From the NCBI GenBank assembly GCA_903813345.2, contig CAIIXF020000010.1, forward strand, positions 3,093,169 through 3,157,168: 64,000 nt of DNA, in the 5' to 3' direction. Positions within the stretch are counted from its first letter, which is position 1. Every line of letters starts with the position of its first letter. Positions 4,301-57,880 of the stretch are shown piece after piece. The notes under the pieces were generated by a model. The model ran no database searches. It saw only the letters and a list, made by a program, of their open reading frames with translations, and had not been told where the DNA came from. Origin of the DNA: Owenia fusiformis. Taxonomy: Eukaryota > Annelida > Polychaeta > Sabellida > Oweniidae. The position numbers and the translations under genes were made by a program.

Positions 4301-7300
4301 ATTCACATACCAAATATAAACAAAATTGCTCCACTACTTTTCGAGTTATAGTAAAATACGTTAAAATGGCGGCCATTTTTCAAAATGGCCGCCTTCTACC
4401 AAAAGTGTTTTTAGACAGTGTGCAATGCTTATAGTATTCACATACCAAATATGAACAAAATCGCTCCACTATTTTTTGAGTTATAGCAAAAATCGTAAAA
4501 TGACGAGTAAAGGCCGCCATTTTTCAAGATGGCTGCCATGTGCTTCTTTAATATCTACATTTGTAGCATTATTAATGTCCTTTATAATTTTTTACATTTA
4601 AAACATATTGCTATTACAGTTTTACATATTACACCTAAATTACTGTAAAATCGGCACTAAAATGGCCGCCATTTTGAAATGAGCGGCCATTTTGAAAATC
4701 GGCTATCGAGCAGAACTTCTACCCCCATAGGGTATATTTGTACAAAATATGAACAAAATTGGGCCAACGGTATTTGAGTTATTGCCCGGACGGACGGACG
4801 GACGTACGTACGGGCGGACGGACGTACGTACGGACGGACGGACGTACGTACGGACGGACGGACGGACGGACGGACGGACGGACGTACGTACGGACGGACG
4901 GACGGACGGACGGAGGCGTTCCCTATATCCCTCCGAACTTCGTTCGATGGGATAATAACTTAAGTCTAATAATCTTAATAAAAGAGTCATTTGAAAGTTT
5001 ATCAGAGTTTATGATTTATACATTTTATTCACTTCATTTTATTCACTTACCTTAGGAGGCCCTTCCTCAGCTTCATCCTAAAAATTAATAAATATACATG
5101 TTTAATATATTATAATCTTAAAAGCTTCATTATATTACTTGATTCAATACTGAGGGGGCTTGTTTGGTATGGGATACAATGTATGGAACAAATGTATTGG
5201 TTTCTTAATTATGGATTTAGCTAGTAGTTACTTTGTCACTTGCTGTACAAGAGACCTGACCTTTTTAAAAAAATATAAACTTGTATTGTATTTTCACAAA
5301 ATAATAAAGCCTGTGTCTGTGAAACACATCCGATAAGATTTTATTGAAATCAATAGTGGAAATATTCTGACTGAGGATTTAAATTGTCTGATATCTATAA
5401 TATATCATTTAAAATGATAATACAAGTACAGTGTATATAGAAAGATTCATTTATTGAAGAGGAATAAAAATTATCAATAATATAAATTTATTTCAAACAA
5501 CTCTGAAATTCACTATGGAAACCACTGGAAAACACATATCGAGTAGACATAGAGTAGATTGAGTAGACATTGAGTAACATCACAGCTGCACAGAACATAC
5601 AAAGCTTATGAAAAACAAAACCTGACGTCACAAACATGCTCCTTCACCAAAACACATGCAACTTTATTATCTGTATTAACATGTACAATTTAACATGCAT
5701 TTATAATATAACATTATGGCTTAACTTAAGGTTCCTTATAATAATCCTAAAGATATGTTCAAAAAGGAACTGATTATTTCTGTTTTACTTGCCTCATCTG
5801 GAGATCTATTTTGAAACATTTGTGAGCATTATGAAACACTGTATGTGCATATAACAGAAGTGTACAAAAAGTACATTAGTAATGTCAAGTATCAAGGAAT
5901 CCAGTTATGTGTACGATAATGAGTTTTTATATCTGACAAGGTTCCAATATTAATAAACATATTGTACCTTACATTCAGTATAAAAGTTACTGATTTACTG
6001 AATTCCAAGGAAAGTAAGTTTAAAATGATACAAATGAAAAATTTGAAATCTTCCAATTTTCTTCAGCCATTTTGAAAGATAATTACTGGTAATATGAGGA
6101 TCTGGATGAAGGTCTGTACAACATGGAATAAAATAAGCTAACCAGATAACATTTGTATCATTTTTACAAACCTGGGCATCATTTTCATCAGCATCAGCCC
6201 CATTGTCAGCATCTACATCTGCATTGTCACCATCTACAGCTGCATTATCACGATCTATAACTGCATCATCACCATCTACAGCTCCATCATCATCATCACC
6301 CTCATCAGCACCATCTTCAGCAGCATCTTCTTCATCCTCCTCATCTTTGATATCAGCGAGGTTTTCTTGGTCCTCATTGTCGTCCTCCTCTGCATCGTCT
6401 TCCAATTTATCCTTATGGTCAATATCTACCCCATTACCATCCCCCACCTCTTCATGTGCACCACCACCAGGGGCGGCATTAGCCGCAACCTTTTCAACAC
6501 GTTCGTCCTCTTCTTCCTCAACTGCACGGTTTTTCACATCATCAATATTCTTTTGTTCAACATCATTTACCTTAGCCTCTTCCTCAGCTGCTTTGTTGGA
6601 GTGTTCATCTGCTCCGTTTTCAGCTTGTTGCTGCTGGTTCTGTGCCTCTTCTGAAAGGTCAGGAGTACATTCACCACAATCATAGATAGCAATATTACCA
6701 ATGAGTGTAGAAGTGTTTTAAGAGAATAAAGTCAGATGAAGGGGCTCAACCTGTATTACTGTACTAATGGCAACCTATAAATAAACCCAATTGATGGACT
6801 ATGATACATACCTTCTTTTATGTAAAATTGATCACATAGTAAGGAAATTAATAAGCTGTATTAAAACTACTTTGAGAAACACTCGACAGATCTTGAAACT
6901 AGTCATTTAACAAATAAATTTACAGAAAAGAATGTATGGATCATAGTTCAATCATAGTGTCCTGCCTGATACAGGTTGTTATGCTCTTACATTTTTGGGA
7001 ATTTTGAGTAAAGCATTATAGGTTGATCCCCTTTAAAGGAAAGGGTTACACAAACCAAACATGTTAACGAATGGCTGAGGTAGACATACATAAGAGTTAC
7101 ATGTAAATGGATAGGTTCAGCATAGTAAAGCAACTACATTTCAGGAAGCACGTTTTGGGATTACAAAATGTCAAACGAGCTGCAATCATGCACAAAATGC
7201 ATCCCTAAATTATCTCAATAGTAAAATGTAATGTTGGTTTATCATAATGTTCAAAATATTGATCGCTTGTATAAAAATGGAATTCATGCAGTAAAGCTAG

Positions 7301-18723: not shown

Positions 18724-21700
18724 GTAAGTTATATTTATTTTATATGCACATTGATGATGCATACTCTAGGTGGACATATCCCACCTGTTAGTTTTCATTT
18801 ATTTGAATACATGTACTGTACTTTAGATGTTTGGATGATCCAACTCATCAGAGCTGGAGCAGCCTCATCCATATATACATTCACCACCTTCTCAAAATAG
18901 AATCATCATTTTCAGGCTTGAATTGATTAAAGCACTGACCCATTATTGATGTCTTTTATTTATAAGCTGCTATTGTTTTCTAGATTATTTTTTTTTAATT
19001 TCAGACAGAGAAATGGGTTTGTTCTGCTGCTTCAAGCGACAAAAAGAAAGAAATCCCAAATAAAAATGTGATTGCAAAACTAGAGGTGAGGGGTGCAAGA
19101 ATCTTAGAGCTACGTTTTAAGAACTTGATGAAATAATTTCAGTAAATGTTGAGTGTTGAGTCAGCCTACATGTCTGTTAATTCTGTTAGTTTTGGTCTTC
19201 AAAAAGAGTATTGTGAAGAAGTGTCCATCATTACGCTACTTCTACATTTAGAACATATCTTATTGTCTAAAAATATGAGGACCAACTTATAAAACAAAAA
19301 ATACAGGACATTTGGACAATTAGCTGAGGTGTATTATCAGAATGTACTCTTGTTTCAATTAATGGGATGCTTGACTGCAATATCTCATACATGTACATCA
19401 CTTTTGTGAATCATTCCTGTGGATAAGGCTAAATAACTTAAAGTAATTGTTGAAAAGCACATAGCTAGTAATGTCAGGTGTATGGACCTCCTGTTATGCT
19501 GTATTTAAGAAATATAGACCAAAGAACAGGGATAATATTGTTGAATACACCCCGCAGGGCTAGGCACAAACGTTTTCTGTACCCTGAATGACCGAAGGGA
19601 GTGAGGGGTTCGAAAGCTTTTGTGCCTAGCCCTAAGGGGTGTATTCGACGATATTACACCTGCTCTGAGGTCTATATTACGATTCGAACATGAAAACCCA
19701 CAAAAATGTTTCAAATATTCATTATGGTCCACCATTACTACGGTCCGCTGTTATGACGTCACACATTACACGTATTACCAGAGGCAATGTTCACGAATAT
19801 ACCCCAGGTGAAATGTTGACTTTGTTTACAGTTTATAGAAGGTGTGAATACAGTCATGTTCGAATTCTTTATAGGAAATGGCAAAAAACTACAAGAATAG
19901 TGCAGATAAGTGGAGGTCATTTGGCTACCAGAAGGCCATTGCTGCACTGAAAACATACAATAAAGAAATCACTACATATGAGGTAAGCCTGTGCATTCAG
20001 ATGAATTAATGGGTGTGTCTTAAAAATTAAAGATAAATGTGTGACGTCATTTGAAACCCTGTGACTCAGTCACAGGGTTTCAAATGATGCTTCAATTAAC
20101 CCTTTGCTTGTAATATTGTTTTTCCAACTTTTTATTTGTGGATGGCGGTTGGTGTTAAGCATCTGTAGTACAGCTTCTATAACAAATGTCACTTGGTGAC
20201 ATCTTGCATGTTAATGCCTTGTATGTATTCATGTTATCTAATATGTATTTAACGTTATGTTAAATATGTTTTGATGTTATCTAAAAATGTGTTTCAAAGG
20301 ATGCAGTTGCATTACGAGGAGTTGGTAAAAAACTTGCAGATAAAATCTGGGAGATCATACAAACAGGCGAGCTTCGGAAGCTGAATGAGATATCTTCGAC
20401 AGATGAAGCAAAAACCACCAATATGTTTTCTGACATATGGGGGGTTGGCGCTACAACTGCTAGACTTTGGTACACTCAGGGACACAGGTATGACTGTTCT
20501 GTGTATAAGTTAAATCAATCATCCAGAAAATGCAAATGATCATTGTACTGATATGGCCTATATTTCTAGAGTAAGATCTCCAATGAATTTTACTGGTAAC
20601 AGAGTGTATTTTTGCATAGTTATTGGATAAAATCATAGCAAAAAGTTTAAAAAAATAAGGATGAAAATCACTCAACTTGGTTTCTTGTGAGATAAATAGA
20701 TAACTATGATATTTGGATGATAAAGGGAATACATCTCATGTTAATTATTTGCTTGAGGATGTTGAACAGAGAATGGAAGATGAGGCCTCTGAGTGTGATA
20801 ACAAAATGACATTGAGAATACACTGAGGTAGCCTATGTCGTACATGCGTTATAATGTGGATGTTATTCCTCTGAGTGTGATTACAAGATGACATTGAGAA
20901 TAGACTGAGGTAGCCTATGTCGTACATGCATTATAATGTGGATGTTATTCCTCTGAGTATGATTACAAGATGACATTGAGAATAGACTGAGGTAGCCTAT
21001 GTTGTACATGCATTATAATGTGGATGTTATTCCTCTGAGTATGATTACAAGATGACCTTGAGAATAGACTGAGGTAGCCTATGTTTTACATGCATTATAA
21101 TGTGGATGTTATTCCTCTGAGTATGATAACAAAAGGACATTGAGAATAGACTGAGGTAGCCTATGTTTAACATGCATTATAATGTGGATGTTATTCCTCT
21201 GAGTATGATTACAAGATGACCTTGAGAATAGACTGAGGTAGCCTATGTTGTACATGCATTATAATGTGGATGTTATTCCTCTGAGTATGATAACAAAATG
21301 ACATTGAGAATACACTGAGGTAGCCTATGTCATACATGCATTATAATGTGGATGTTATTCCTCTGAGTATGATAACAAGATGACCTTGAGAATAGACTGA
21401 GGTAGCCTATGTCGTACATGCATTATAATGTGGATGTTATTCCTCTGAGTATGATTACAAGATGACATTGAGAATAGATTGAGGTAGCCTATGTCGTATA
21501 TGCATTATAATGTGGATGTTATTCCTCTGAGTATGATTACAAGATGACCTTGAGAATAGACTGAGGTAGCCTATGTTGTACATGCATTATAATGTGGATG
21601 TTATTCCTCTGAGTATGATTACAAGATGACCTTGAGAATAGACTGAGGTAGCCTATGTCGTACATGCATTATAATGTGGATGTTATTCCTCTGAGTATGA

Positions 21701-24700
21701 TAACAAAATGACCTTGAGAATAGACTGTGAGGTAGCCTATGTCGTACATGCATTATAATGTGGATGTTATTCCTCTGAGTATGATAACAAGATGACCTTG
21801 AGAATAGACTGAGGTAGCCTATGTTGTACATGCATTATAATGTGGATGTTATTCCTCTGAGTATGATTACAAGATGACCTTGAGAATAGACTGAGGTAGC
21901 CTATGTCGTACATGCATTATAATGTGGATGTTATTCCTCTGAGTATGATTACAAGATGACCTTGAGAATAGACTGAGGTAGCCTATGTTGTACATGCATT
22001 ATAATGTGGATGTTATTCCTCTGAGTATGATAACAAAATGACATTGAGAATACACTGAGGTAGCCTATGTCATACATGCATTATAATGTGGATGTTATTC
22101 CTCTGAGTATGATAACAAGATGACCTTGAGAATAGACTGAGGTAGCCTATGTTTTACATGCATTATAATGTGGATGTTATTCCTCTGAGTATGATAACAA
22201 AAGGACATTGAGAATAGACTGAGGTAGCCTATGTTTAACATGCATTATAATGTGGATGTTATTCCTCTGAGTATGATTACAAGATGACCTTGAGAATAGA
22301 CTGAGGTAGCCTATGTTGTACATGCATTATAATGTGGATGTTATTCCTCTGAGTATGATAACAAAATGACATTGAGAATACACTGAGGTAGCCTATGTCA
22401 TACATGCATTATAATGTGGATGTTATTCCTCTGAGTATGATAACAAGATGACCTTGAGAATAGACTGAGGTAGCCTATGTCGTACATGCATTATAATGTG
22501 GATGTTATTCCTCTGAGTATGATTACAAGATGACATTGAGAATAGATTGAGGTAGCCTATGTCGTATATGCATTATAATGTGGATGTTATTCCTCTGAGT
22601 ATGATTACAAGATGACCTTGAGAATAGACTGAGGTAGCCTATGTTGTACATGCATTATAATGTGGATGTTATTCCTCTGAGTATGATTACAAGATGACCT
22701 TGAGAATAGACTGAGGTAGCCTATGTCGTACATGCATTATAATGTGGATGTTATTCCTCTGAGTATGATAACAAAATGACCTTGAGAATAGACTGTGAGG
22801 TAGCCTATGTCGTACATGCATTATAATGTGGATGTTATTCCTCTGAGTATGATAACAAGATGACCTTGAGAATAGACTGAGGTAGCCTATGTTGTACATG
22901 CATTATAATGTGGATGTTATTCCTCTGAGTATGATTACAAGATGACCTTGAGAATAGACTGAGGTAGCCTATGTCGTACATGCATTATAATGTGGATGTT
23001 ATTCCTCTGAGTATGATTACAAGATGACCTTGAGAATAGACTGAGGTAGCCTATGTTGTACATGCATTATAATGTGGATGTTATTCCTCTGAGTATGATA
23101 ACAAAATGACATTGAGAATACACTGAGGTAGCCTATGTCATACATGCATTATAATGTGGATGTTATTCCTCTGAGTATGATAACAAGATGACCTTGAGAA
23201 TAGACTGAGGTAGCCTATGTCGTACATGCATTATAATGTGGATGTTATTCCTCTGAGTATGATAACAAGATGACCTTGAGAATAGACTGAGGTAGCCTAT
23301 GTCGTACATGCATTATAATGTGGATGTTATTCCTCTGAGTATGATTACAAGATGACCTTGAGAATAGACTGTGAGGTAGCCTATGTTGTATATGCATTAT
23401 AATGTGGATGTTATTCCTCTGAGTATGATTACAAGATGACATTGAGAATAGATTGAGGTAGCCTATGTCGTACATGCATTATAATGTGGATGTTATTCCT
23501 CTGAGTATGATTACAAGATGACATTGAGAATAGACTGTGAGGTAGCCTATGTTGTACATGCATTATTATGTGGATGTTATTCCTCTGAGTATGATTACAA
23601 GATGACCTTGAGAATAGACTGTGAGGTAGCCTATGTCGTACATGCATTATAATGAGGATGTTATTCCTCTGAGTATGATAACAAAATGACCTTGAGAATA
23701 GACTGTGAGGTAGCCTATGTTGTACATGCATTATAATGAGGATGTTATTCCTCTGAGTATGATAACAAAATGACCTTGAGAATAGACTGTGAGGTAGCCT
23801 ATGTTGTACATGCATTATAATGAGGATGTTATTCCTCTGAGTATGATAACAAGATGACCTTGAGAATAGACTGTGAGGTAGCCTATGTCGTACATGCATT
23901 ATAATGAGGATGTTATTCCTCTGAGTATGATAACAAAATGACCTTGAGAATAGACTGTGAGGTAGCCTATGTTGTACATGCATTATAATGTGGATGTTAT
24001 TCCTCTGAGTATGATAACAAAATGACCTTAAGAATAGACTGTGAGGTAGCCTATGTTGTACATGCATTATAATGTGGATGTTATTCCTCTGAGTATGATT
24101 ACAAAATGACATTGAGAATAGACTGAGGTAGCCTATGTCGTACATGCATTATAATGTGGATGTTATTCCTCTGAGTGTGATAACAAGATGACCTTGAGAA
24201 TAGACTGTGAGGTAGCCTATGTCGTACATGCATTATAATGTGGATGTTATTCCTCTGAGTATGATAACAAGATGACCTTGAGAATAGACTGTGAGGTAGC
24301 CTATGTCGTACATGCATTATAATGTGGATGTTATTCCTCTGAGTATGATTACAAGATGACCTTGAGAATAGACTGAGGTAGCCTATGTTGTACATGCATT
24401 ATAATGAGGATGTTATTCCTCTGAGTATGATTACAAGATGACCTTGAGAATAGACTGAGGTAGCCTATGTCGTACATGCATTATAATGTGGATGTTATTC
24501 CTCTGAGTATGATTACAAGATGACATTGAGAATAGACTGAGGTAGCCTATGTCGTACATGCATTATAATGTGGATGTTATTCCTCTGAGTATGATTACAA
24601 GATGACATTGAGAATAGATTGAGGTAGCCTATGTCGTATATGCATTATAATGTGGATGTTATTCCTCTGAGTATGATTACAAGATGACATTGAGAATAGA

Positions 24701-27700
24701 CTGAGGTAGCCTATGTCGTACATGCATTATAATGTGGATGTTATTCCTCTGAGTATGATTACAAGATGACATTGAGAATAGATTGAGGTAGCCTATGTCG
24801 TATATGCATTATAATGTGGATGTTATTCCTCTGAGTATGATTACAAGATGACCTTGAGAATAGACTGAGGTAGCCTATGTTTTACATGCATTATAATGTG
24901 GATGTTATTCCTCTGAGTATGATTACAAGATGACCTTGAGAATAGAATGAGGTAGCCTATGGTGTACATGCATTATAATGTGGATGTTATTCCTCTGAGT
25001 ATGATAACAAGATGACCTTGAGAATAGACTGAGGTAGCCTATGTCGTACATGCATTATAATGTGGATGTTATTCCTCTGAGTATGATAACAAAATGACCT
25101 TGAGAATAGACTGAGGTAGCCTATGTCGTACATGCATTATAATGTGGATGTTATTCCTCTGAGTATGATTACAAGATGACATTGAGAATAGACTGAGGTA
25201 GCCTATGTTGTACATGCATTATAATGTGGATGTTATTCCTCTGAGTATGATTACAAGATGACATTGAGAATAGACTGAGGTAGCCTATGTCGTACATGCA
25301 TTATAATGTGGATGTTATTCCTCTGAGTATGATAACAAGATGACCTTGAGAATAGACTGAGGTAGCCTATGTTGTACATGCATTATAATGTGGATGTTAT
25401 TCCTCTGAGTATGATAACAAGATGACCTTGAGAATAGACTGAGGTAGCCTATGTTGTACATGCATTATAATGTGGATGTTATTCCTCTGAGTATGATTAC
25501 AAGATGACATTGAGAATAGACTGTGAGGTAGCCTATGTTTTACATGCATTATAATGTGGATGTTATTCCTCTGAGTATGATTACAAGATGACCTTGAGAA
25601 TAGACTGAGGTAGCCTATGTTGTACATGCATTATAATGTGGATGTTATTCCTCTGAGTATGATTACAAGATGACATTGAGAATAGACTGTGAGGTAGCCT
25701 ATGTTTTACATGCATTATAATGTGGATGTTATTCCTCTGAGTATGATTACAAGATGACCTTGAGAATAGACTGAGGTAGCCTATGTTGTACATGCATTAT
25801 AATGTGGATGTTATTCCTCTGAGTATGATTACAAGATGACCTTGAGAATAGACTGAGGTAGCCTATGTTGTACATGCATTATAATGTGGATGTTATTCCT
25901 TACAACAGGACATTGGCTAACTTAGAAAAGAATGCCAACCTGAACAGACAACAGAAGGTTGGACTTAGACTCTATGATGATCTCAAAGAGAGGATGACAA
26001 GAGAAGAAGCAGGAAAGATTGAGCAATATGTAAGATCTAAATATTATAAATAGAAAAAACAGAATTAATTTTACTTGTAGATAAGATGGGTTAGGCTATT
26101 TGCTAGTTTTGTTTGTTTGGTATTTATATTTTTGTTATATTCTATATGTACTTAGAAAAGGTATAATATTGTTGCCAGTTTGGCAGTGGCATCTCTCACT
26201 TCTATTGTCATTTATAGACAAATTGCCTGACGGATTGATTTGAAATTTCAGAGTTGTTCCATGAAACATTTTTTTAGGGACAAAATTGTTCACATTGAAT
26301 GTAGAACCAATTACGTAAAAATACATTTAGTCATATGGTCAATTCAAATTTTATACACACCCAGAGACAATAATCCACAAAATTGAACCCTGTTATTGTT
26401 GTCCTTTAGGTGAAAGAAACAGCCCAGAAAATCAACCCAGGCCTAATAGCAATGGCTTGTGGCTCATATAGAAGAGGAAAGCAAACATGTGGCGATGTTG
26501 ATGTATTAGTGACACACCCAGATGGCAAATCCCATAAAGGGGTCTTCCAAAAACTCTTACATGGCTTGCATGAAACAGGTAATTGGTTTTAAAATTTACA
26601 GTTTTGTTGATATTTTAAAGTCATTATCTGAATTTTAATATTTTTATGTCTTTCAAATGTTACCTTCTCCACTTTACTATTTAAATATGCTCAAGTAGAA
26701 GTTGCAACTAAATCTCATAATTATTTCACATTAATAGATTATACACAGTTATATTTTTCAAAAATGTCGCTATATTGGGGACAACATTTTGCATTGCAAG
26801 GGTTCCTGACTGATGACCTTGTCACTCAAGATGACCATAGTACCCAGCAGAAGTACTTGGGAGTTTGTAAGCTTCCAGAAGAAGGTTCACAGGTAAAGAT
26901 GATATTGTTAAATTGATTTCTCTAATGCACTTCATAAAATTCATAAGGCAGCCACTCCTGTATATGTTAATGAGCCTATATTTTTCTTCAAATTCATTAA
27001 ATAATTTCCTCTTTTGAAATTATTTTATTTTTGTTTTGCTCTAAATAGTTATAAAATACAGCTTGATCAAACACTTATGTGCTGGGCTACTACCATATGT
27101 CTTATTTTGACTAACATTTCCATATTGAATATTTATTTCAGCATAGACGACTCGACATCATTGTAGTTCCTCATAATGAACTGGCCTGTGCTCTGATGTA
27201 CTTCACTGGCTCCGCCCACTTTAACCGCTCATGTAGAAACCTTGCCATAGCAAAAGGGATGTCATTATCTGAACATTCCTTAAACACTGGAGTAATAAGA
27301 TCAGTAAGTATACTATATAGATTTCTTTTGGGAGATAATGAGATTTATCATAAGTTTAACTGGAATGCTATGTTGTGATTGGTTTGTACTTGTCACCTGA
27401 TCAGTCGATAAATTAGAATATTACACTCTAAATGTACATCACACCAAGCATCGCGAGGGATTCCTGACCTACTCAGCAAAATATTCTCTCAGACCAAACA
27501 TCTCTTTCTTTAATATATATTTCCCAAATGGCTGTCGGCTCCACATTGAGGGTCACACACTAATATGATTTTCAAATGCATTCTTTAGATTAAAATTTGT
27601 TTTCTTAATTTATCTGTTACATTACAGCACGGGGAGAAGATTAATAAAGGCACCCCTTTACCCACTCCCACAGAGGAGAGTGTATTTGAGCTGCTTGGAA

Positions 27701-48000: not shown

Positions 48001-51000
48001 TAAAAATTGTGAAAGTGATTGGACACTACAAACTTAGATTAAATTGTATCTTTCAATGGAACTCCATTGTGTATTGATTAATATAAATTCTACAGTGGAA
48101 TCAATGTAATTATTGTGTAACCTCCTGATACCAAGCGGCCATTGTTGTTATATTAGGTAACATTACGGTGCTTGTGCCAATTACTTTGCTTGCTCTTACA
48201 GTCTCCTCCCTATGTAACAATTACCTAATTGTTTTGCTCAGTATTCCCTATGATTGAATCCATTGTTGAAATCTGAGGCCCGGGAATGCAATAATAAAAT
48301 AAAGTTAAATAATTCAGTATGTATACACATCCAACTCAGTACACTACTAGTGGATTTTTTCTAAACTATATTTTATAGCATATCCCTGGGCAATCTTTGG
48401 GCAGTGGTCGATGTCTGTTACAAATGACAGGTAGTGACATTTTGCATGTTAATGCCTTGTTATATATAAATCCCCTATTTAAATTGACATCTTGTATTTC
48501 AGAACTCGTAACATAACTGGAGAAATTACAGTGAACCGTAAACAACGTGACTTGCGTAAGTTTCGGAAGATGTCATGTTACATCATGCAGAACGATGATC
48601 TACTGCCACACTTAACGGTTGATGAGTCAATGATGTGTTCCGCTAACTTGAAACTGCCCGAATCTACTTCACTAGATGACAAGAAAATATTGGTAATTTT
48701 TTGTTTTGTGTCTTCATGTTAAAGTGCAATATAAGAAGTCATAACAGTTTGAATAAGTCAAATTAAGTCAAATATCTTATTAAAGTAATTGTCAGGAGAT
48801 AAGCGAATGAATGTTTCAGCACCAAAATTGAATTCTTCGCCCTGAAGGCAAAAGCTATGTTAACTACCCAAGGTTAACTAGAGCTTTAAAAAACTTCTTG
48901 TTCTTTCAAATTGAGGTTTCATTGCAAGAATAACACCAAAATGAAATTGTTTACCTGTATAAGGGGAGGCATCAAAAGTTCGATGTCGGATAGAAAACTA
49001 AATAAATCTAGTTAGGGGGGTGGGGGTTCAAGCCCATTTCAGTTTGCTATCCGACAAATTTCAACTTTCGAAAGTTTTGCCTATTTCGACTCAGAATGCC
49101 TTGGAATGATTTAAAAATAAAGATTTTACCTGATGCTTTCTCTGTCAAGATCATTCCCATTGATTCTATTCTATCGATAGTTGTTAAAAGCCACAAATTA
49201 TGATAGGAATTAACAAAAACTAGATCGTGTTTAGCAATAATCTTTTCAAATTCTCAAACCGGAAGTCAGTGATCAATTTTCATGGTATTTAGTTTTTGGG
49301 GGGGGAGGGGGGGGGGTCAGAGTCAAAACTAGATTTATTTAGTTTCCAATCTGACATCGAACTTTTGATGCCTCCCCTAAAGCCCTCCCACATCCAAATA
49401 TTTGTAAATATCTTATATTAGTATTAAATAACAATAACATTTCAGGTGAATGAAATTCTAGAGACATTATCACTACAAGAATGTCGAAGCACGATGGCTG
49501 CCAGGTTATCAGGGGGTCAGAGGAAACGATTGTCCATTGCGCTAGAGCTGGTCAACAACCCGCCAGTCATGTTCTTTGATGAACCCACCAGGTATATTTT
49601 CATGGATCACATTTTAAAATGCAAAGTAGAGTAGAAAAAGGGGAAAGCACAGGAAAAGAAAATCGGCATTTATAGTCAGTACTCAGATTGTCTAGAAATG
49701 CCAGAAAATCATTGAACACATACATGTACCTCATAGACGTTTTCAACATTTGTTTTGATATTGCTATGCAATATATAAAAACATGCTTTTCTCATTTATT
49801 ATTATATTACTATGTAATTATATATAATATGTGGCAACCCTAACAACATGAATATCTTGGCTCACATACAAAAAACAAGCAAGCATGTGTAATGAATAAT
49901 TAATTATCTCAAATCATCATCATCCATAATGGTTAGTATAATAGGTATATTCTCTAAATATGACCAATCAACCATATCTTTGCCCATCCTTTACAGGATA
50001 CTGAGCTGGTAACTGTAAATGGTGAATTTACTACCATATGAGATATCATTGGTGTTTTTATGATTGAATTTCAGTGGGCTGGACAGTGCGTCCTGTCTTC
50101 AGTGTATGTTATTGCTCAAATCTCTGGCTATGGGGGGACGTACCATCATATGTACAATTCATCAGCCTAGCGCAAAGATATTTGAGATATTTGACAATGT
50201 GAGTATATGGTGTAATGACCTTGAGATATTTGACAATGTGAGTATATGGTGTTGGATGACCCTGGATACCAGGTTGCTATACAGCTCAGCTGTGTTGACT
50301 GGTGTTTTGATGGCTCAGGGGTAGAGCATCTTTTCTGTATTGTACCATTATTATTATTGTATTATTACAAAGACAATAGTGCCTTAGTATGCTGATAATC
50401 AAAGACACTACAAGTGTTTTTCCTATTTATACATAATGTCAAAATAAATTCCATGAATAAAAGAAATGATGATAATGATTGAATTGAATTTGAAATGATC
50501 AGCGTGGCTTTATATAGTCCTCTGTGCAAAACCTGCAAAACAATTTATGATCCAATTTTTAATTGACTTTACCTTTTTTATTTAAGTTACTTGTTAATCA
50601 GCTGTTATATTTTCATGTTTCAGTTGTATATGTTAGCTGAAGGGCAGTGTATTTATACAGGGAAAGTATCAGGGCTGGTCCCATATCTGACAGACATTGG
50701 TTTACCCATGTTTTTCCATGTTTCAGTTGTATATGTTAGCTGAAGGGCAGTGTATTTATACAGGGAAAGTATCAGGGCTGGTCCCATATCTGACAGACAT
50801 TGGTTTACCCATGTTTTTCCATGTTTCAGTTGTATATGTTAGCTGAAGGGCAGTGTATTTATACAGGGAAAGTATCAGGGCTGGTCCCATATCTGACAGA
50901 CATTGGTTTACCCATGTTTTTCCATGTTTCAGTTGTATATGTTAGCTGAAGGGCAGTGTATTTATACAGGGAAAGTATCAGGGCTGGTCCCATATCTGAC

Positions 51001-54000
51001 AGACATTGGTTTACCCATGTTTTTCCATGTTTCAGTTGTATATGTTAGCTGAAGGGCAGTGTATTTATACAGGGAAAGTATCAGGGCTGGTCCCATATCT
51101 GACAGACATTGGTTTACCCATGTTTTTCCATGTTTCAGTTGTATATGTTAGCTGAAGGGCAGTGTATTTATACAGGGAAAGTATCAGGGCTGGTCCCATA
51201 TCTGACAGACATTGGTTTACCCATGTTTTTCCATGTTTCAGTTGTATATGTTAGCTGAAGGGCAGTGTATTTATACAGGGAAAGTATCAGGGCTGGTCCC
51301 ATATCTGACAGACATTGGTTTACCCATGTTTTTCCATGTTTCAGTTGTATATGTTAGCTGAAGGGCAGTGTATTTATACAGGGAAAGTATCAGGGCTGGT
51401 CCCATATCTGACAGACATTGGTTTACCCATGTTTTTCCATGTTTCAGTTGTATATGTTAGCTGAAGGGCAGTGTATTTATACAGGGAAAGTATCAGGGCT
51501 GGTCCCATATCTGACAGACATTGGTTTACCCTGTCCCCCTTACCATAATCCAGCAGACTTTGGTAAGTGGAAATAAATATTGCAGATTGATTTGTCTTTT
51601 ATGACGTGGAAAAGTATTTCTCCAACAGTGATATCAAGATAATTGAACTCCACTCTAGAAAATATAGAATGAACACTTGAAAACTTAAAGATTTTTTTAA
51701 AAATTATTTATCTAATTTTTGTTTAACTATACTAAACAGCACACAAAACTTTACGGAAATGCCAATTTTTCCCCTTATGAATGATTCCAATGTGAAAGCT
51801 GATGTGGCCTTATATAACATGTGGCCATTTTCTGGTCCTCTGAACCAATTGAACACCTCACCTCAGCTGAGTTATGTTTTACTGCAGTCATGGAAATAGC
51901 ATGCGGGGAATATGGTGAAAGGAATCCACAAATGGTTGTCAAAGTACGCAGCGGAGCCTGCAAAAATTACCAAACCTTAGACAAACCTCAGAACTGTAAC
52001 AAAGACAATAGTGACCTCAATAATACAGACAACAATAAACAGCCAGATGACATTGAGGTTGTCTCACAAAATGGTGCTGCCATGGCAACAAATGAACTGA
52101 ATAATGACAGTGCCAGCATGGACAAGGCACACAAGTCATTAACTGTGAATTTGGCATTGAACAGTCAGAATGGAAGTGAAACCATTGTGATGAAACCCAT
52201 TGAGGTAAGTTAACTTGAGATTCCAAGAATCTTTCCAATGAACCATAGGCATATTAGCAGTTGGTGCATGGTTCTATTCACTTTTATTATGTCACCACCA
52301 CAAGTGGTGACATATTATTATAGTCTCCTACTTTTTTCTGGGCAGTGTTTGGCATCTGTAACAATTTCCGTTCTGTGTCTGTAACAATTTGCAATAACTT
52401 ACAAGGTGGTGACATTTTGTCAAGTTAATGCTCTGTATGTAGTTTAAAAGTGAGCAAGGTTTTAAAGATAGGAATATTGGAGCTAGATTTGGAAACTTTC
52501 CCATGGTCCAACAAGTATATATTCTACAAATATACAATCTAGGTTTATCATCAAAGGACTTTACACATATGAACTTTTTAGATCAGAATTTCTTGCATTT
52601 CAGAGCGAAAGAACAGCACTTACGGGGCAGGTGGTGGAAGCAGAGTCAGAAGAGGAGGTAACGACATCTATAAGATTCAATAAAATTCTTGATTGATGTA
52701 AAACATCAATTTCCAAATTAAATGCACATTAACTAGCCTATTATTTGCAATTTTATATTATATTTTGTTCAGATTAATTGCACCAATTAGTGTTTTTCAA
52801 TTTTTAGGGTAGCATGCTCTCAGATCTCTCTAGTAGGCTTCTGCGGCAATGTCCTTGGGGATGAAAGCACATCCCCATTACTAATATGGCTCTTATTTTG
52901 TAATAAAAGAGATACAGTTGTATTTATTATCTATTGTGAATCTGTTTCAGATTGTCCACCAGTTTGCTACAAGCTGTTTTACTCAGTTCAGGGTCCTTTT
53001 CATCAGGACATTTGTCTCCATCATCAGGGATACAGTGAGTATTTCTAGTGATCTTCCAAGCATTGGAGCAAGTGCAGCTACTTGAGAATTCGAACAATTT
53101 GTACCCAAGCTAATTTTCAACCAACCCCACTTGAAAATGAGAAAACTGAAATTTGTATGGTTTGGGCCAAAATTGTGAATTGTAAGATTTTTGCCAGAAA
53201 TGAGAAAAAATCCCGAAAGAACACTCCCAGCTCTTTTTAGCACTCTCAGTGTCGTTGAGGCTTAAGAGCCACTATGATTAAAAATATTTGAAATATGAAA
53301 AATCCTAGAAATCTTTTTACTGCCAAGGTATTCACAAATGAACCTATTGATGACCCATATTCTTTATATTTTCAGAACCTCACCCAGCTGCGCCTCATCT
53401 CACATTTATCTATTGGAGTGCTGATTGGTTTATTGTACCTTGGTATTGGTAACCAGGCTGACAAGGTCTACAACAATGCTGGGTGCTTGTTCTTCACAAT
53501 GCTATTTCTCATGTTCACTGCTCTCATGCCTACAGTTATGACATGTAAGTAGCACCTACTTAATCAAATGGGAGGGGGGGGGGCTAAACAAAGTAAAAAA
53601 ACTGGGTGTTAATTCATGGATTATCCATAAAAATTAGAAATATATTTTTGGATTATATAGTACTAATGTAATCTTCTAGTCAATAATTAATCATTTAATA
53701 GTGTATTGATGTTTTTAAATGTAAAACAAAAATGCATGAAAAACTCCAACAATTCATTTTATATACAACTCTACAAAATTATTATATGAAATTACATTTT
53801 TTATAATAAAAGTATATTTTTATATATCAATATCAGCAATATGCAAACAAAACAAACAATGTTATTAAGTCAAATTGATGGCATTTAAAAGAAGCTGCTA
53901 ATATAATCTGTGTCAAGCTACAGTATACCTAGGGATGGCTATAAAAAATTATGCTCTAGACTCATTGTTAACAGTAAAATGCCATCATGATAAACCATGA

Positions 54001-54560
54001 CATCTCATTTCTTCTCAGCCCTGAGATGCCATGATATAATGAGCTTGATTTTGCGATCCAGGAGAGCCCAAAATTGAGGATTTTTGAGATCTTTCATCCC
54101 AGCTCATATTTCATCTAATTGGGGTCATACTTGTGTACCTGTGCCTGATAACTATCACACTTATTGACAGTTATAATTCTTTCTATCTGATGTGCTCAGA
54201 TCACAGAATATGCTTCATAATATCAGAGCATGTTCAGGTGACACAGAAAGATGCTACGAGTATCAGAATGGTAAAATGCCATTTACCCATTTTAGACTGA
54301 AACTGAAAAGTATGTGTAGTGGAAGTATTATATAATTTAGCTTAAGCTTTGTCTCTCCTGTGTATCTTTAGATCTATACTCTACCCCAGCTAATATATGG
54401 TAAAAACAATGGAGAACCAAATGCTTGTAAATATATACAAAGTGTATTTCTGTTTCCAGTCCCAATGGAGATGTCTGTCTTTGCCAGAGAGCACCTGAAT
54501 TACTGGTACAGCCTAAAGGCCTACTACTTAGCTAAAACAATGGCAGACATGCCCTTCCAG
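32843..54560 (+). CDS. ABCG1/ABCG4-like half ABC transporter (exons 1-11; 3' end beyond window)
   Basis: A half-size ABC transporter of subfamily G. It would dimerise in membranes, and ABCG1/ABCG4 move cholesterol and other sterols. Exons: 32843-33095, 42176-42293, 48503-48692, 49446-49591, 50075-50198, 51448-51562, 51888-52204, 52604-52657, 52951-53034, 53376-53544 and 54460-54560. All are in phase, giving 557 codons. ATG 32843 is chosen because an in-frame TGA lies upstream at 32786 with no ATG between. Walker [10 protein letters not shown] (107-115), Q-loop [14 protein letters not shown], signature [10 protein letters not shown] (208-217), Walker [17 protein letters not shown]-loop TIHQPS (His265), then first membrane helices [20 protein letters not shown] and [17 protein letters not shown]. 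The ATPase domain precedes the membrane domain, as in all ABCG proteins. The last four membrane helices are not in the window. Sequence is closer to ABCG1/ABCG4 than to ABCG2, ABCG5 or ABCG8. Confidence 0.93.
35485..35806. mobile_element. Diverged inverted-repeat element
   Basis: Left arm with GAATGAAATGAAACATC, CTGAACCTCATTG and AAATTTTGGTTGATTTT pairs with right arm AAAATCAACCAAAATTT, CAATGAGGTTCAG and ATTTCATTTCATTC. Arms of about 120-150 bp with mismatches suggest an old MITE. Confidence 0.6.
36154..36719. mobile_element. 243-bp MITE in a 323-bp tandem duplication
   Basis: The second copy (36477-36719) starts CAGGGGCAGATCTGGG, ends CCCAGATCCGCCAGTG (16-bp TIR with three mismatches) and is flanked by ATTCA on both sides. 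The first copy starts at 36154 after the same ATTCA. Element plus about 65 bp of left flank are repeated with a 323-bp period, so the duplication happened after insertion. Confidence 0.8.
38785..39026. repeat. Minisatellite, about 21-bp unit
   Basis: Units such as AAAACCCCATCACAAAAATTG repeat about ten times, with TATTATTATTTTGCTTTGT interruptions that recur as a higher-order block. Confidence 0.85.
41029..41860. repeat. Minisatellite, 57-bp unit, about 13 copies
   Basis: The unit contains AGGTATTCAGCTTATAGAGA, TTCAGCTTAAAATGGGGTC and TTCTATATATAG. Because 57 is a multiple of 3, it is open for about 180-230 codons on both strands, which mimics a repeat protein. Symmetric openness on both strands, decay at both ends and lack of splice context argue against coding. 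It lies in the 3' part of ABCG intron 1. Confidence 0.9.
42176..42293 (+). CDS. ABCG exon 2: Walker A
   Basis: It encodes residues 85-124, including [20 protein letters not shown] and LAGYR. Acceptor TTTTGCAG, donor ACAG|GTATGT. It aligns closely with the same segment of ABCG1. Confidence 0.95.
42671..44956 (+). mobile_element. 2.3-kb non-autonomous element with 14-unit tandem core
   Basis: The left end TGTCACCACC (42671-42680) folds back on GTGGTGACA a few bases later. The right end carries GGTGGTGACA (44925-44934) followed by TTTTGTCATGTTAATGCCTT. Between them, about 14 copies of a 125-170-bp unit (TTCAACTTGCTTCAAATTGA, TTTCAAAATCATCTACATG, TCAAGGTCAAAAAAGGTC) make the core. Left flank, tandem core, right flank is the plan of pearl/HINE-type Helitron-related elements of bivalves, though TIR-based origins are possible. 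It lies in ABCG intron 2. Confidence 0.75.
48399..48460 (+). mobile_element. Partial copy, TGTCACCACC/GGTGGTGACA family (right end)
   Basis: It ends GGTAGTGACATTTTGCATGT followed by TAATGCCTTGT, matching the right end of the element at 42671-44956. It stops 42 bp before ABCG exon 3, so it forms part of that exon's upstream splicing region. Confidence 0.6.
48503..48692 (+). CDS. ABCG exon 3: Q-loop
   Basis: It encodes residues 124-187, with [20 protein letters not shown] then TVDESMM, matching the [20 protein letters not shown] of ABCG1. Acceptor TATTTCAG, donor TTG|GTAATT. Confidence 0.93.
48962..49378. mobile_element. 417-bp MITE with about 50-bp TIRs in ABCG intron 3
   Basis: The left end AGGGGAGGCATCAAAAGTTC (then GATGTCGGAT...AAATCTAGTT) is mirrored by AACTAGATTTATTTAGTTTC...ACTTTTGATGCCTCCCCT at the right, with a few mismatches. 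It contains a poly-G tract near 49299-49317. The target duplication is unclear, possibly TA. Confidence 0.75.
49446..49591 (+). CDS. ABCG exon 4: ABC signature and Walker B
   Basis: It encodes residues 188 to part of 236: [20 protein letters not shown] then VMFFDEPT. Acceptor ATTTCAG, donor CCAG|GTATAT, phase 2. Confidence 0.95.
50075..50198 (+). CDS. ABCG exon 5: D-loop and H-loop (with duplicated donor)
   Basis: It encodes residues 236-277: [30 protein letters not shown] then DN. Acceptor ATTTCAG. The donor AAT|GTGAGT at 50199 is duplicated with its context 39 bp downstream at 50238; use of the second adds [13 protein letters not shown] in frame. Confidence 0.93.
50184..50253 (+). repeat. 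39-bp-period tandem duplication of the exon 5 donor
   Basis: GAGATATTTGACAATGTGAG followed by TATATGGTGT occurs at 50184 and again at 50223. Both copies keep a consensus GTGAGT donor. Confidence 0.9.
50624..51531 (+). repeat. Nine tandem 103-bp copies of an acceptor plus the 5' part of ABCG exon 6
   Basis: Copies start at 50624, 50727, 50830, 50933, 51036, 51139, 51242, 51345 and 51448. Each has 84 bp of exon (TTGTATATGTTAGCTGAAGG onward to TTTACCC) and, except the last, 19 bp of intron-like sequence ATGTTTTTCCATGTTTCAG. By eye all copies are identical. Only the ninth continues into the rest of the exon. Confidence 0.97.
51448..51562 (+). CDS. ABCG exon 6: end of ATPase domain
   Basis: It encodes residues 278-316: [38 protein letters not shown]. 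This matches the LYVLSQGQCVYRGKV...CPTYHNPADF region of ABCG1. The last of nine identical acceptors must be used. Donor TTTG|GTAAGT. Confidence 0.92.
51888..52204 (+). CDS. ABCG exon 7: linker between ATPase and membrane domains
   Basis: It encodes residues 316-421. [17 protein letters not shown] matches the VMEVASGEYGDQN start of the ABCG1 linker. The rest is a hydrophilic Asn/Asp/Ser-rich stretch longer than in ABCG1. Acceptor TACTGCAG, donor GAG|GTAAGT. Confidence 0.9.
52290..52436 (+). mobile_element. Short complete copy, TGTCACCACC/GGTGGTGACA family
   Basis: It starts TGTCACCACCACAAGTGGTG and ends GGTGGTGACATTTTGTCAAG then TTAATGCTCTGT. It lacks the tandem core of the 42.7-kb copy, keeping only the ends and the ATCTGTAACAATTTC segment. 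It lies in ABCG intron 7. Confidence 0.7.
52604..52657 (+). CDS. ABCG exon 8: short acidic linker exon
   Basis: This 54-bp exon encodes [18 protein letters not shown]. It is phase 0 at both ends, so skipping would keep the frame. Acceptor CATTTCAG, donor GAG|GTAACG. Confidence 0.75.
52951..53034 (+). CDS. ABCG exon 9: entry to membrane domain
   Basis: It encodes residues 440-467, [20 protein letters not shown] then SIIRDT. It matches the [22 protein letters not shown] coupling region of ABCG1. Acceptor GTTTCAG, donor ACA|GTGAGT. Confidence 0.92.
53376..53544 (+). CDS. ABCG exon 10: transmembrane helices 1 and 2
   Basis: It encodes residues 468-524: [18 protein letters not shown] and [19 protein letters not shown], nearly identical to ABCG1. 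Acceptor ATTTTCAG, donor ACAT|GTAAGT. Confidence 0.95.
54460..54560 (+). CDS. ABCG exon 11: loop before helix 3 (last exon seen)
   Basis: It encodes residues 524-557: [20 protein letters not shown] then [14 protein letters not shown], matching [21 protein letters not shown] of ABCG1. Acceptor TTTCCAG, donor CAG|GTAAGG. About 190 residues of the usual C-terminus are still to come. Confidence 0.94.
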
Positions 54561-56416
54561 GTAAGGCCTTATTACTGTACATACATTAATTATATATTGT
54601 CCTATAGTCCTATATATATATATAGAGTCCTATAGTGTCCAGCGACCATGCCTATAGTCTACATTTAGGTAGAAAAAAACACCAACAATTGTTGGTAAAA
54701 ACGCCAACAATTACCTATCCTGAGAAGGGACGGGGACAGAAGGAATAATGATTCTACATACTATAGTATACTAAAACTGTCAGACATAATTTAGATATAG
54801 GGCAATTAAGAAGATCTGTTAGGTTTCAGGTTATAGCTCTGTAGCAAGTAATAATCTAGGAATCCCTGAATTTAACTAGACACCCATGTGGAGATCCAGG
54901 TCTCTGATTGGATACCCCACACCGAGTCTCTAATGAAATCTCAATAACAACATGAACTCTTTAGTAACTTCCCTGGATCCTGCATGTGTGTCATCAAAAG
55001 TACTGAGGTATTGCAACGGTTGTTTACCCCATTCTCCAAATGCAGGAGATGAGTCATCATCCACTCTGTGCCTTTCTTCTATTCTATTAGGAATGGAGTC
55101 CTGTCTTTGGAGGATGTAATTACCCATAATGCTCCACCGTGACCTTGACAATTGCATGTACTTTTATTCTGTTGATGTAAATATGTGTGTCAGTTGATTG
55201 CTCACTTGGCTCAAAGGACACATAGTGGAATATCATCTCAATGAAAATGCCATCATTCACTTTTCAATAGGCCAAGAATGAAATATTTGTTTAAGTTTAT
55301 CCGATGAGGGAGGCGTAGTACTTTGCAATATTCCATTTCTTATATGAATATTTTCAATCCAAAGTAATTATCTCAAAAATGGGGAAGAAATGAAGAATAG
55401 GAAGGATGTTCATCAAGGCTATTATTATATTGAATACTGTCATATTACCTCCCCCCATTTCTATTTCTCAAAAGTAGTCTTTTTGGATTGAAAGAAACAT
55501 ATGAAGATACCCTTAACGACACAATATCTTTCTTCATATAGTGATGCAATAGGCATTTTTTATTTGATTGTATGGTTCCAATTCATATTTTTTACAATAT
55601 CTTTTGATAGGTGCAGTATACTTTACATAACATGTGGTTTAATATGATTAAAACCAAGTTACATATGGTTGCTCTGTACAATAATAAACAATTCGTTATA
55701 TTAATATTATTACCAACACAATATCTTTAATATCTTTCTTTATATATTGATGCAATTTGCTATTTTGAATACATAGGACTCTTTTGATAGCTTCAGTATA
55801 CTTCTTACATAACATATGGAATAATATAATTAGTAACCCTACATATGGCTATCTCTCAATAATTAAATATATGACAATAAAGTAGCATCTTTTGCACCTC
55901 AGATTAGTGTTCCACTTGGGATATGTTCCACATGCAGAGATTCATTTACATTAAGTTAATGAATTGCTGGAATTTTAAGTGTTCCACTTATGGAGGTGTT
56001 TCATTTACAGAGGTTAAGTTCGCTTATAAAATGGAAAACTGGAATTTTAAGTGTTCCACTTATGGAGGTGTTTCATTTACAGAGGTTAAGTTACATTTAT
56101 AAAATGGAAAACTGGAATTTTAAGTGTTCCACTTATGGAGGTGTTTCATTTACAGAGGTTAAGTTCGCTTATAAAATGGAAAACTGGAATTTTAAGTGTT
56201 CCACTTATGGAGGTGTTTCATTTACAGAGGTTAAGTTACATTTATAAAATGGAAAACTGGAATTTTAAGTCTTCCAATGATTAAGGTGTTCGACTTACAG
56301 AGGTTCACTTATGTTAGAACAATGGTTATCTTGACTGTGGAGAATGCTTTATCTGGAGTTTTTCACCTGACAGGTCCGGTATATTGAACTACAATTTACA
56401 ATAGCTGTTCCATTTC
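54561..56416. other. Stretch after ABCG exon 11, up to the MFS gene
   Basis: It is probably ABCG intron 11. It is AT-rich with short TATATA runs and the 72-bp array at 55973-56275. I looked for ABCG helices 3-6 and the extracellular loop and found none. Confidence 0.5.
55973..56275. repeat. Minisatellite, about 72-bp unit, four copies
   Basis: The unit has AAGTGTTCCACTTATGGAGG, TGTTTCATTTACAGAGGTTA and TTATAAAATGGAAAACTGG. Copies alternate between TTCGCTTATAAAA and TACATTTATAAAA, a two-unit pattern. It lies just downstream of the MFS gene's 3' end. Confidence 0.85.
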
Positions 56417-57880
56417 TTAATGTACTGGTTTGTAAGAGTCTTGTGACTCTTCATATTGCAATCGTTTATCCCTTTCAATTTTCATAAGACATAAATTCAA
56501 AAAAATTGCACAAGTACATAACATAGATGTCAGTACAAAAAACCACCGAGTACATGATTCTCCATAACAAGTTTGTGATCCAGATGGACTATAGGTTTCA
56601 TAATTCAAACCAAAAAGCTTTTGAAATAAAACAATTCCTATTGCGTGGCCAACCATCATAAGACCAACGTTCTGTGCATAATATTTCATACCAAATAGAT
56701 CAACAGCTATAATAGTTACTTGTATATAAAGGAAGGCAAAGGCTATGGCTGCCATTGCAGAGGCACACATCAAACCAGCAAAGGATTGGTTAAAAAATAC
56801 CAAAATTATTTGACTAATACACATGAGTATTACAGGGAATAAAAGAGTTGATGATTTGGGAATGTCTGGCCATTTTTGTGAAATGTAATCTTGTGCCACT
56901 CCACCAAGTAATCGCCCGATTGATGCAAAGATTGGTATTGAAAATGTGAAGGCGAATGATTTTATGTTAACTTGTGCAGATTTTGAAATACCTGTGATAT
57001 TATTTGTAATAGTCCCACCGGTGCCCCCAATTATTACGCAGATAAGAAATATGTTATAAAACTGAGGTGTTTTAATGATTTGCCACCACTTCATTTCTTC
57101 ATCTAGCGGTAGATTTGTTATCTGCTTTCCAGTAATGGGAGTTTTTTCATTTATTTCATCGCTTACATTGTTAGGTATAACATTTTCTGTATTTCTTTCT
57201 GCCACTTCATTTTGATTTGTATGAGGTAATTCTGACAGTTCACTATCAGATTCAGCTGTTACTTCAGGAAGCATTTTTAGCATTGCAACACCAAATGTAT
57301 TTATAGAAGCTGATAATATGGCTAGCATAAGCAAGAACTCTCCAAGCTTTTGGTTCTCTGCATCTTCAATATGTCCTTGTACAAACACACCTTCATAGAG
57401 GGCACTAGATATCGCAGGGCTTATTCCAAATACAGCTTGGAGGAGGCCAGCTACTTTGCCAATGTGTTTCCTGTCATAGTTCTTGCAATTCACTACGTAT
57501 GATGCTATACATATAAATATAGTTCCAACAGATGCCATAAAGTAAAAAACACATAAAAGCCAACTGTTTGAAGTGAAGAACATTCTAAAGTTTGTTGCTG
57601 TTGACATGAGTCCAAATCCTAAGCCTGAGAGGACAAGTGAGATAATACATGTTACTCTAGGCCCGAAATAGTCGAAGACAATTCCTGCTGGAAAGAAGAA
57701 ACAAAGTCCCAAATCTCCACTAGATGCAATATATTCCAGTTCAGTTTGAGTATAGTTGAATGTCTGTTTCAGGGCAATTGCATATGCATTGAATCCAAAC
57801 ACTATTCCTGACATGAAATGTGCAAGTAGTCCAATACTCAGAGACACATATTTCTGATGTTCTCGTTTTTTTAAATCCAT
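56417..57880 (-). CDS. Intronless major facilitator transporter, Nodulin-like type
   Basis: A 487-residue membrane transporter in one open frame. The N-terminal half has six predicted helices starting VSLSIGLLAHFMSGIVFGFN. The loop after helix 2 reads DYFGPRV, the family's D-x-x-G-x-R/K signature, and SSGDLGLCFFFPAGIVFDYF is typical of Nodulin-like MFS proteins. A hydrophilic loop (about 205-265) separates a second six-helix half that opens with GGTGGTITNNITGISKS, resembling the GTGxTVINNxGQIxxS motif of that family. Substrate cannot be told; relatives include yeast MCH1-like and plant nodulin-like carriers. It lies antisense to and probably inside the ABCG gene. Lack of introns, when neighbours have many, suggests retroposition or transfer (inference). 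Other MFS subfamilies such as monocarboxylate-type are the main alternative. Confidence 0.85.
   Translation of the reverse strand: MDLKKREHQKYVSLSIGLLAHFMSGIVFGFNAYAIALKQTFNYTQTELEYIASSGDLGLCFFFPAGIVFDYFGPRVTCIISLVLSGLGFGLMSTATNFRMFFTSNSWLLCVFYFMASVGTIFICIASYVVNCKNYDRKHIGKVAGLLQAVFGISPAISSALYEGVFVQGHIEDAENQKLGEFLLMLAILSASINTFGVAMLKMLPEVTAESDSELSELPHTNQNEVAERNTENVIPNNVSDEINEKTPITGKQITNLPLDEEMKWWQIIKTPQFYNIFLICVIIGGTGGTITNNITGISKSAQVNIKSFAFTFSIPIFASIGRLLGGVAQDYISQKWPDIPKSSTLLFPVILMCISQIILVFFNQSFAGLMCASAMAAIAFAFLYIQVTIIAVDLFGMKYYAQNVGLMMVGHAIGIVLFQKLFGLNYETYSPSGSQTCYGESCTRWFFVLTSMLCTCAIFLNLCLMKIERDKRLQYEESQDSYKPVH

Follow-up and report, generated by a model that had tools for sequence, protein, structure and literature searches.

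Nine acceptors for one exon: a boundary-spanning minisatellite in an ABCG1/ABCG4-type gene

How does a gene live with nine copies of one splice acceptor, when eight of them lead to a stop codon? The question is posed by an ABC half-transporter gene on the forward strand of the 64,000-nucleotide stretch of DNA analysed here (the window), at about 48.5-53.5 kb. Where its intron 5 meets exon 6 (exons are numbered as in an earlier note on this DNA), the boundary itself is repeated: the end of the intron and the start of the exon stand in a tandem array with nine acceptors. The array is probably a minisatellite of the kind named a "mirage" in lancelets, which arose as a side effect of local tandem duplication and which the gene tolerates as nearly neutral. 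How splicing would cope with it we infer from the frames and spacing of the sites.

Eight decoys and one authentic exon

Tandem Repeats Finder (TRF) reports a single array at 50610-51531, with a period of 103, 9.0 copies, 99% matches and a score of 1837. Eight units fill positions 50624-51447 of the + strand, each made up of an 84-bp copy of the exon 6 start and 19 bp of intron end, ATGTTTTTCCATGTTTCAG; all 103 positions are identical in units 1-8. Copy 9 (51448-51531) has the same 84 exon bases and then runs into unique exon sequence, up to the donor GTAAGT at 51563. It thereby opens the authentic exon 6 (51448-51562, + strand, 115 bp). A double unit searched against the 498-Mb assembly matched only this ABCG1-like locus (best candidates scored). 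The array is new and unusually clean, its eight units being free of differences, and a smaller duplication accompanies it at the other end of the same intron.

The acceptors themselves are slightly less uniform. The final 10 intron bases are common to all nine without a gap, and every acceptor ends in CATGTTTCAG; farther into the intron, copy 1 reads TTATATTTTCATGTTTCAG and copies 2-9 read ATGTTTTTCCATGTTTCAG. The 5' limit of the repeat lies inside the intron, at 10 bases (ungapped comparison) to 14 bases (TRF). The earlier note had counted nine identical acceptors: TRF and direct comparison uphold the eight identical units and the ninth 84-bp copy, but the complete acceptors are eight identical (copies 2-9) and one near-identical (copy 1). 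The junction piece ATGTTTTTCCATGTTTCAG, 19 bases long, ends in CAG and, with the C that precedes it, contains CATGTTT twice. It is taken as the putative mark of the initial duplication, whose precise course it does not let us reconstruct.

Each of these sites has the trappings of a working acceptor. Every unit contains the CTGAC that had been offered as a branch point; the distance from its A to the next junction is 36 bases, against the about 33 bp first given. Directly after the CTGAC comes one CAG, and from there the sequence is AG-free up to the acceptor. The pyrimidine fraction between positions -20 and -4 is 0.71 in copy 1 and 0.76 in copies 2-9. Taken together with the shared last 10 intron bases, these features make the decoy acceptors look complete.

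What the units lack is a donor, as the earlier note had held. Scored with a donor matrix, the best GT in the unit reaches -3.4 bits, against +4.2 for the true exon 6 donor, and by that matrix the 103-bp unit contains no credible donor. RNA structure offers no obvious selector either: the fold of two units is no better than that of shuffled sequences (z -0.63; 54 of 200 shuffles as good), and structural selection of an acceptor was rejected on that ground. With decoys that look complete, no credible donor in the unit, and no special fold, it is position that singles out acceptor 9: from there the exon measures 115 nt to the downstream donor, the only short exon available, and from acceptors 1-8 it measures 218-939 nt.

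The consequences for the message are equally lopsided. Intron 5 (+ strand) runs for 425 nt to the first acceptor (50199-50623) and for 1249 nt to the ninth. Each of acceptors 1-8 would give 28 normal codons, 11 odd codons, and then a TGA that starts 14 bases into the next copy, the same for all eight. (The frame shift to TGA had been recognised; the eleven codons, said to reach into the following copy, in fact count from the end of the 84-bp piece.) From the premature TGA to the end of the resulting exon there are 98 nt (acceptor 8) to 819 nt (acceptor 1). The usual rule for nonsense-mediated decay is 50-55 nt, so all eight decoy products would be decay targets by that rule. Acceptor 9 alone keeps the frame.

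Acceptor 9 also yields a recognisable protein. Exon 4 (49446-49591, 146 bp), exon 5 (50075-50198, 124 bp, ending in phase 0 at its first donor, the GT at 50199), exon 6 from acceptor 9, and exon 7 (51888-52204, 317 bp, joining exon 6 in phase 1), all on the + strand, form an open frame throughout. Exons 4 and 7 were placed by AG/GT borders and open frame, exon 4 also by alignment, and the start of exon 7 lies inside the alignment; exon 5 was placed by the gap-free match of the spliced product to ABCG1. With donor 1 spliced to acceptor 9, 154 columns align to ABCG1 and none contains a gap. Frames, alignment and open exons thus bear out the earlier proposal that the conserved protein comes from the ninth acceptor only.

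Among the best 60 matches listed, the solved structure closest to exons 4-7 is ABCG1 7r8c (E 9.5e-71, 240 bits), whose ABCG1 chains we take to be human; behind it come CDR1-type full transporters (132 bits, in two stretches) and ABCG2 (110 bits). By alignment, the gene is an ABCG1/ABCG4-type half-transporter, ABCG1 and ABCG4 not being told apart, since ABCG4 falls outside the 60 matches listed.

These observations bear on a bleak alternative, in which the array disables the gene, with all nine acceptors in competition and the majority of transcripts non-functional. Under first-AG scanning, copy 1 would be preferred, and with it the stop. Against this stand the open frame of exons 4-7, the 154 gap-free columns to ABCG1, and the failure to find a stand-in: the assembly yielded no other ABCG1-like gene, its remaining matches being at most 43% identical. 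A broken gene is very unlikely.

How would the right acceptor be chosen? Pairing of splice sites across introns, by nearest sites, would pick the decoys; pairing across exons would pick the authentic sites. The gene looks intact, which argues for pairing across exons. The spliceosome would then mostly use acceptor 9, the one nearest to the exon's own donor, as expected of exon definition, and transcripts from acceptors 1-8 would stop early and undergo nonsense-mediated decay.

A duplicated donor and the lancelet mirages

The other end of intron 5 carries a duplication of its own, absent from the earlier note. A 32-bp repeat that spans the authentic exon 5 donor (50182-50213, + strand) recurs with 100% identity 39 bp downstream (50221-50252, + strand), where it creates a decoy donor at 50238. 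Use of this decoy would add 39 nt, or 13 in-frame codons, without a stop. Apart from this pair and the exon 6 array, the local duplications found within 48001-56500 (at least 24 bp, at least 88% alike, at most 700 bp apart) amount to one pair of 28 bp and an array at 55967.

Arrangements of this kind have a name. Mirages, described in lancelets, are tandem repeats across exon-intron boundaries, found at either intron end and often including splice signals (PMC3087553, PMC3902484). In BflGb6, an intron end and the start of exon 2 are repeated in units of 150-160 bp that are 81-100% identical, with 6 copies on one haplotype and 3 on another; in BflGb9, the 3' boundary of exon 2 is duplicated; units measure 10-72 bp in Adh3, and 10-160 bp in Adh3 and the globins together (PMC3087553). 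Lancelet PGBD5 has its own 60- and 108-bp repeats, and TnC was added as a further case (PMC3902484). RT-PCR (reverse transcription followed by polymerase chain reaction) on BflGb6, together with data on Adh3, suggests that regular splicing is undisturbed (PMC3087553).

The likeness is close. Here too the tandem units span a boundary, each holding exon (84 bp) and intron (19 bp) sequence of one junction, and their length of 103 bp falls inside the 10-160 bp range described for Adh3 and the globins. The authentic exon is intact, the decoys lie on the intron side, and the product aligns gap-free to ABCG1. BflGb6, as described, likewise repeats an intron end together with an exon start. There are differences as well: BflGb6 has six and three units of 81-100% identity, against nine copies without a difference here; donor and acceptor of one intron are both affected; and the genome is probably not that of a lancelet. 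That last judgement leans on its twelve large scaffolds and on the GC (guanine plus cytosine) content of the window, 33.4%; lancelets have 19-20 chromosomes and about 41% GC. Searches of the assembly for the GFP and RAG1 families were negative, though none of their controls responded either; a search for COX1 was also negative, with 8 of 14 controls responding, and the assembly may simply lack the mitochondrion. The creatine-kinase-like and arginine-kinase-like phosphagen kinases gave no clear pointer to a phylum. In listings of the open-access literature no further case of mirages outside lancelets was recognised, which does not show their absence from print; the word itself occurs there in the two lancelet papers (PMC3087553, PMC3902484) and once in PMC3188502. 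The earlier observation was right and well read, of a kind already known, though the note did not name the precedent.

Other known systems fit less well. Internal tandem repeats at exon-intron boundaries in human segmental duplications can alter splicing (PMC2812944), and they resemble the present array as minisatellite expansions at a boundary able to change splicing. As described, they have units of about 30 bp, in 4 copies on average, lie in recently duplicated paralogues, and are linked to novel introns and alternative transcripts (PMC2812944). Intron gain by tandem duplication, for which PMC3087553 gives a model, likewise places splice signals inside the duplicated segment. The unit here has no credible donor, supplies no new pair of donor and acceptor, and thus makes no new intron; this explanation was rejected.

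Muscle myosin genes contain clusters of mutually exclusive exons, which are tandem copies of coding exon sequence. The array likewise consists of tandem coding exon copies, but these lack a donor, and each encodes an identical stretch of 28 residues. The units were therefore rejected as separate tandem-duplicated or mutually exclusive exons. (One locus of the genome, C9:37986009-37994334 on the minus strand, gives twelve tandem matches to one piece of the myosin head, positions ~18-84, and is probably an alternative-exon cluster of a muscle myosin gene.)

The lancelet data also touch on function. In principle the array could act as a switch tuned by copy number: a regulated share of transcripts would use acceptors 1-8 and decay, setting the level of the transporter, with a copy number that depends on the individual. 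The upstream acceptors do look complete, and from each of acceptors 1-8 the reading meets a TGA no less than 98 nt short of the exon end; the copy number of the lancelet globin array is not the same on its two haplotypes (PMC3087553). However, the lancelet cases are reported without disturbance of splicing in the accounts at hand (PMC3087553, PMC3902484), eight difference-free copies suggest youth and not a long-kept function, and two units form no special RNA structure. Such a switch is improbable.

A likelier history accounts for the same features. A chance tandem duplication would have covered the acceptor and exon start of this ABCG1/ABCG4-type gene and grown to nine copies, which recent expansion or conversion would have kept uniform. 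Growth would have proceeded outward into the intron, and so would have left the authentic exon intact as the 3'-most copy.

Arrays elsewhere in the genome

Is the array real? Its uniformity also invites the thought that the assembly has expanded or homogenised it, and that the animal has fewer or less similar copies. All copies are exactly identical, and polishing can equalise copies; other arrays in the window (units of at least 29 bp) show 68-97% matches, save two 2-copy arrays at 100%. The assembly itself speaks for the array: about 477 of its 498.3 Mb lie in twelve scaffolds of 31.9-62.2 Mb (the next one sized, C13, has 0.66 Mb), and these large scaffolds, together with a 5.1-kb array of the window in which 62 copies were resolved, suggest a long-read assembly, by which 927 bp would be easily spanned. 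Further evidence comes from a survey of myosin genes, which covered 14 stretches (98 kb) and 65 of 92 listed myosin-head matches.

Local duplications were flagged at four of the 65 matches. At L072 (C4:24494600-24504599, at ~6045-6982 of the stretch), four copies of an acceptor and exon start are spaced 260, 260 and 259 bp apart, and the reading to the donor is open from the last one alone. At L062 (C4:17292500-17299999, 4665-4800, minus strand), four identical 34-bp units at a myosin exon end each carry a CAG|GTAGGG donor; the first donor gives a 114-nt exon, donors 2 and 3 put it out of frame, and donor 4 introduces stop codons. L063 (C10:4785000-4791499, ~2336-2770) has degenerate downstream copies of the donor region of a myosin exon. 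The remaining one, L070, was dropped because the duplication touches the match by one base. The survey thus contains two clear further cases, one donor array (L062) and one acceptor array (L072), plus the degenerate donor of L063.

The L072 copies have diverged, so this is probably an older version of the ABCG1 design, and their divergence is not explicable by homogenisation. With similar arrays in myosin genes and precedents in lancelets, a real array is more likely than an artefact, which is unlikely. The same evidence, a design shared with L062 and L072 in one genome and with the lancelet cases, supports the view of the array as a mirage.

Are splice sites singled out for duplication? Only 5 of 130 myosin match ends lie within 10 bp of a local duplication, against 8.1 +/- 2.6 expected from random shifts. 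(The script counted 6; one was a wrap-around artefact at a stretch end and was left out.) Inside the exon matches, duplications of at least 24 bp occur in 2 of 65, against 6.4 expected, and 1.6% of 2000 shifts gave a count as low. Match ends only approximate splice sites in these comparisons, and large arrays weigh heavily in the expected count. The 130 myosin match ends thus show no enrichment for local duplications, special targeting of splice sites is unsupported, and none is needed. The simplest reading is a general process of local duplication, weeded out within exons and tolerated on spreading into introns.

Several points count against the array as a tolerated mirage. The use of acceptor 9 and the decay of the other transcripts are inferred from sequence. 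The identity of the eight units could also stem from assembly polishing. With exon ends not enriched, it stays a coincidence that one intron carries two duplications. Finally, a survey of cytochrome P450 genes counted 106 matches, of which the best 30 were cut out as loci, and none of these 30 loci has a splice-site array; the frequency of such arrays is thus uncertain. At one of the 30, L032 (minus strand), a local duplication lies no more than 60 bp from the match, at 2444-2601: a 123-bp tandem copy, in frame, of the P450 N-terminal stretch, with TTTCAG between the copies.

Two side observations concern other parts of the genome. The 62-copy array of the window lies at 20786-25900 and has an 82-bp unit and 95% matches. 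Two very similar creatine-kinase-like genes, L005 (C10:18523007-18526648) and L006 (C1:48608219-48611860), have one open frame each and are perhaps retrocopies.

Choosing among equal sites

The arrays share a polarity. A duplicated acceptor would be viable only with the authentic exon as the 3'-most copy, and a duplicated donor only with the authentic exon as the 5'-most. The cases described here all fit that layout, as survival demands.

A broader claim can be entertained, tentatively: boundary-spanning minisatellites may be a general and active feature of this genome, tolerated since strict exon pairing ignores the eight decoys. If strict exon pairing holds, the ABCG1-like gene would serve, as it stands, to test exon definition against first-AG scanning. 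Copy number would be the natural variable of that test, and may also tune expression through decay. To call the locus a natural competition experiment, as the earlier note did, is a fair description; the decay switch proposed along with it found no positive evidence here.

Work on the choice among equal splice sites usually relies on engineered minigenes. This gene supplies a natural set of eight identical acceptors and one near-identical, with one right answer, plus a duplicated donor. Moreover, if the genome is not a lancelet's, the array would extend mirages beyond lancelets and would tie them to background local duplication, with no special process.

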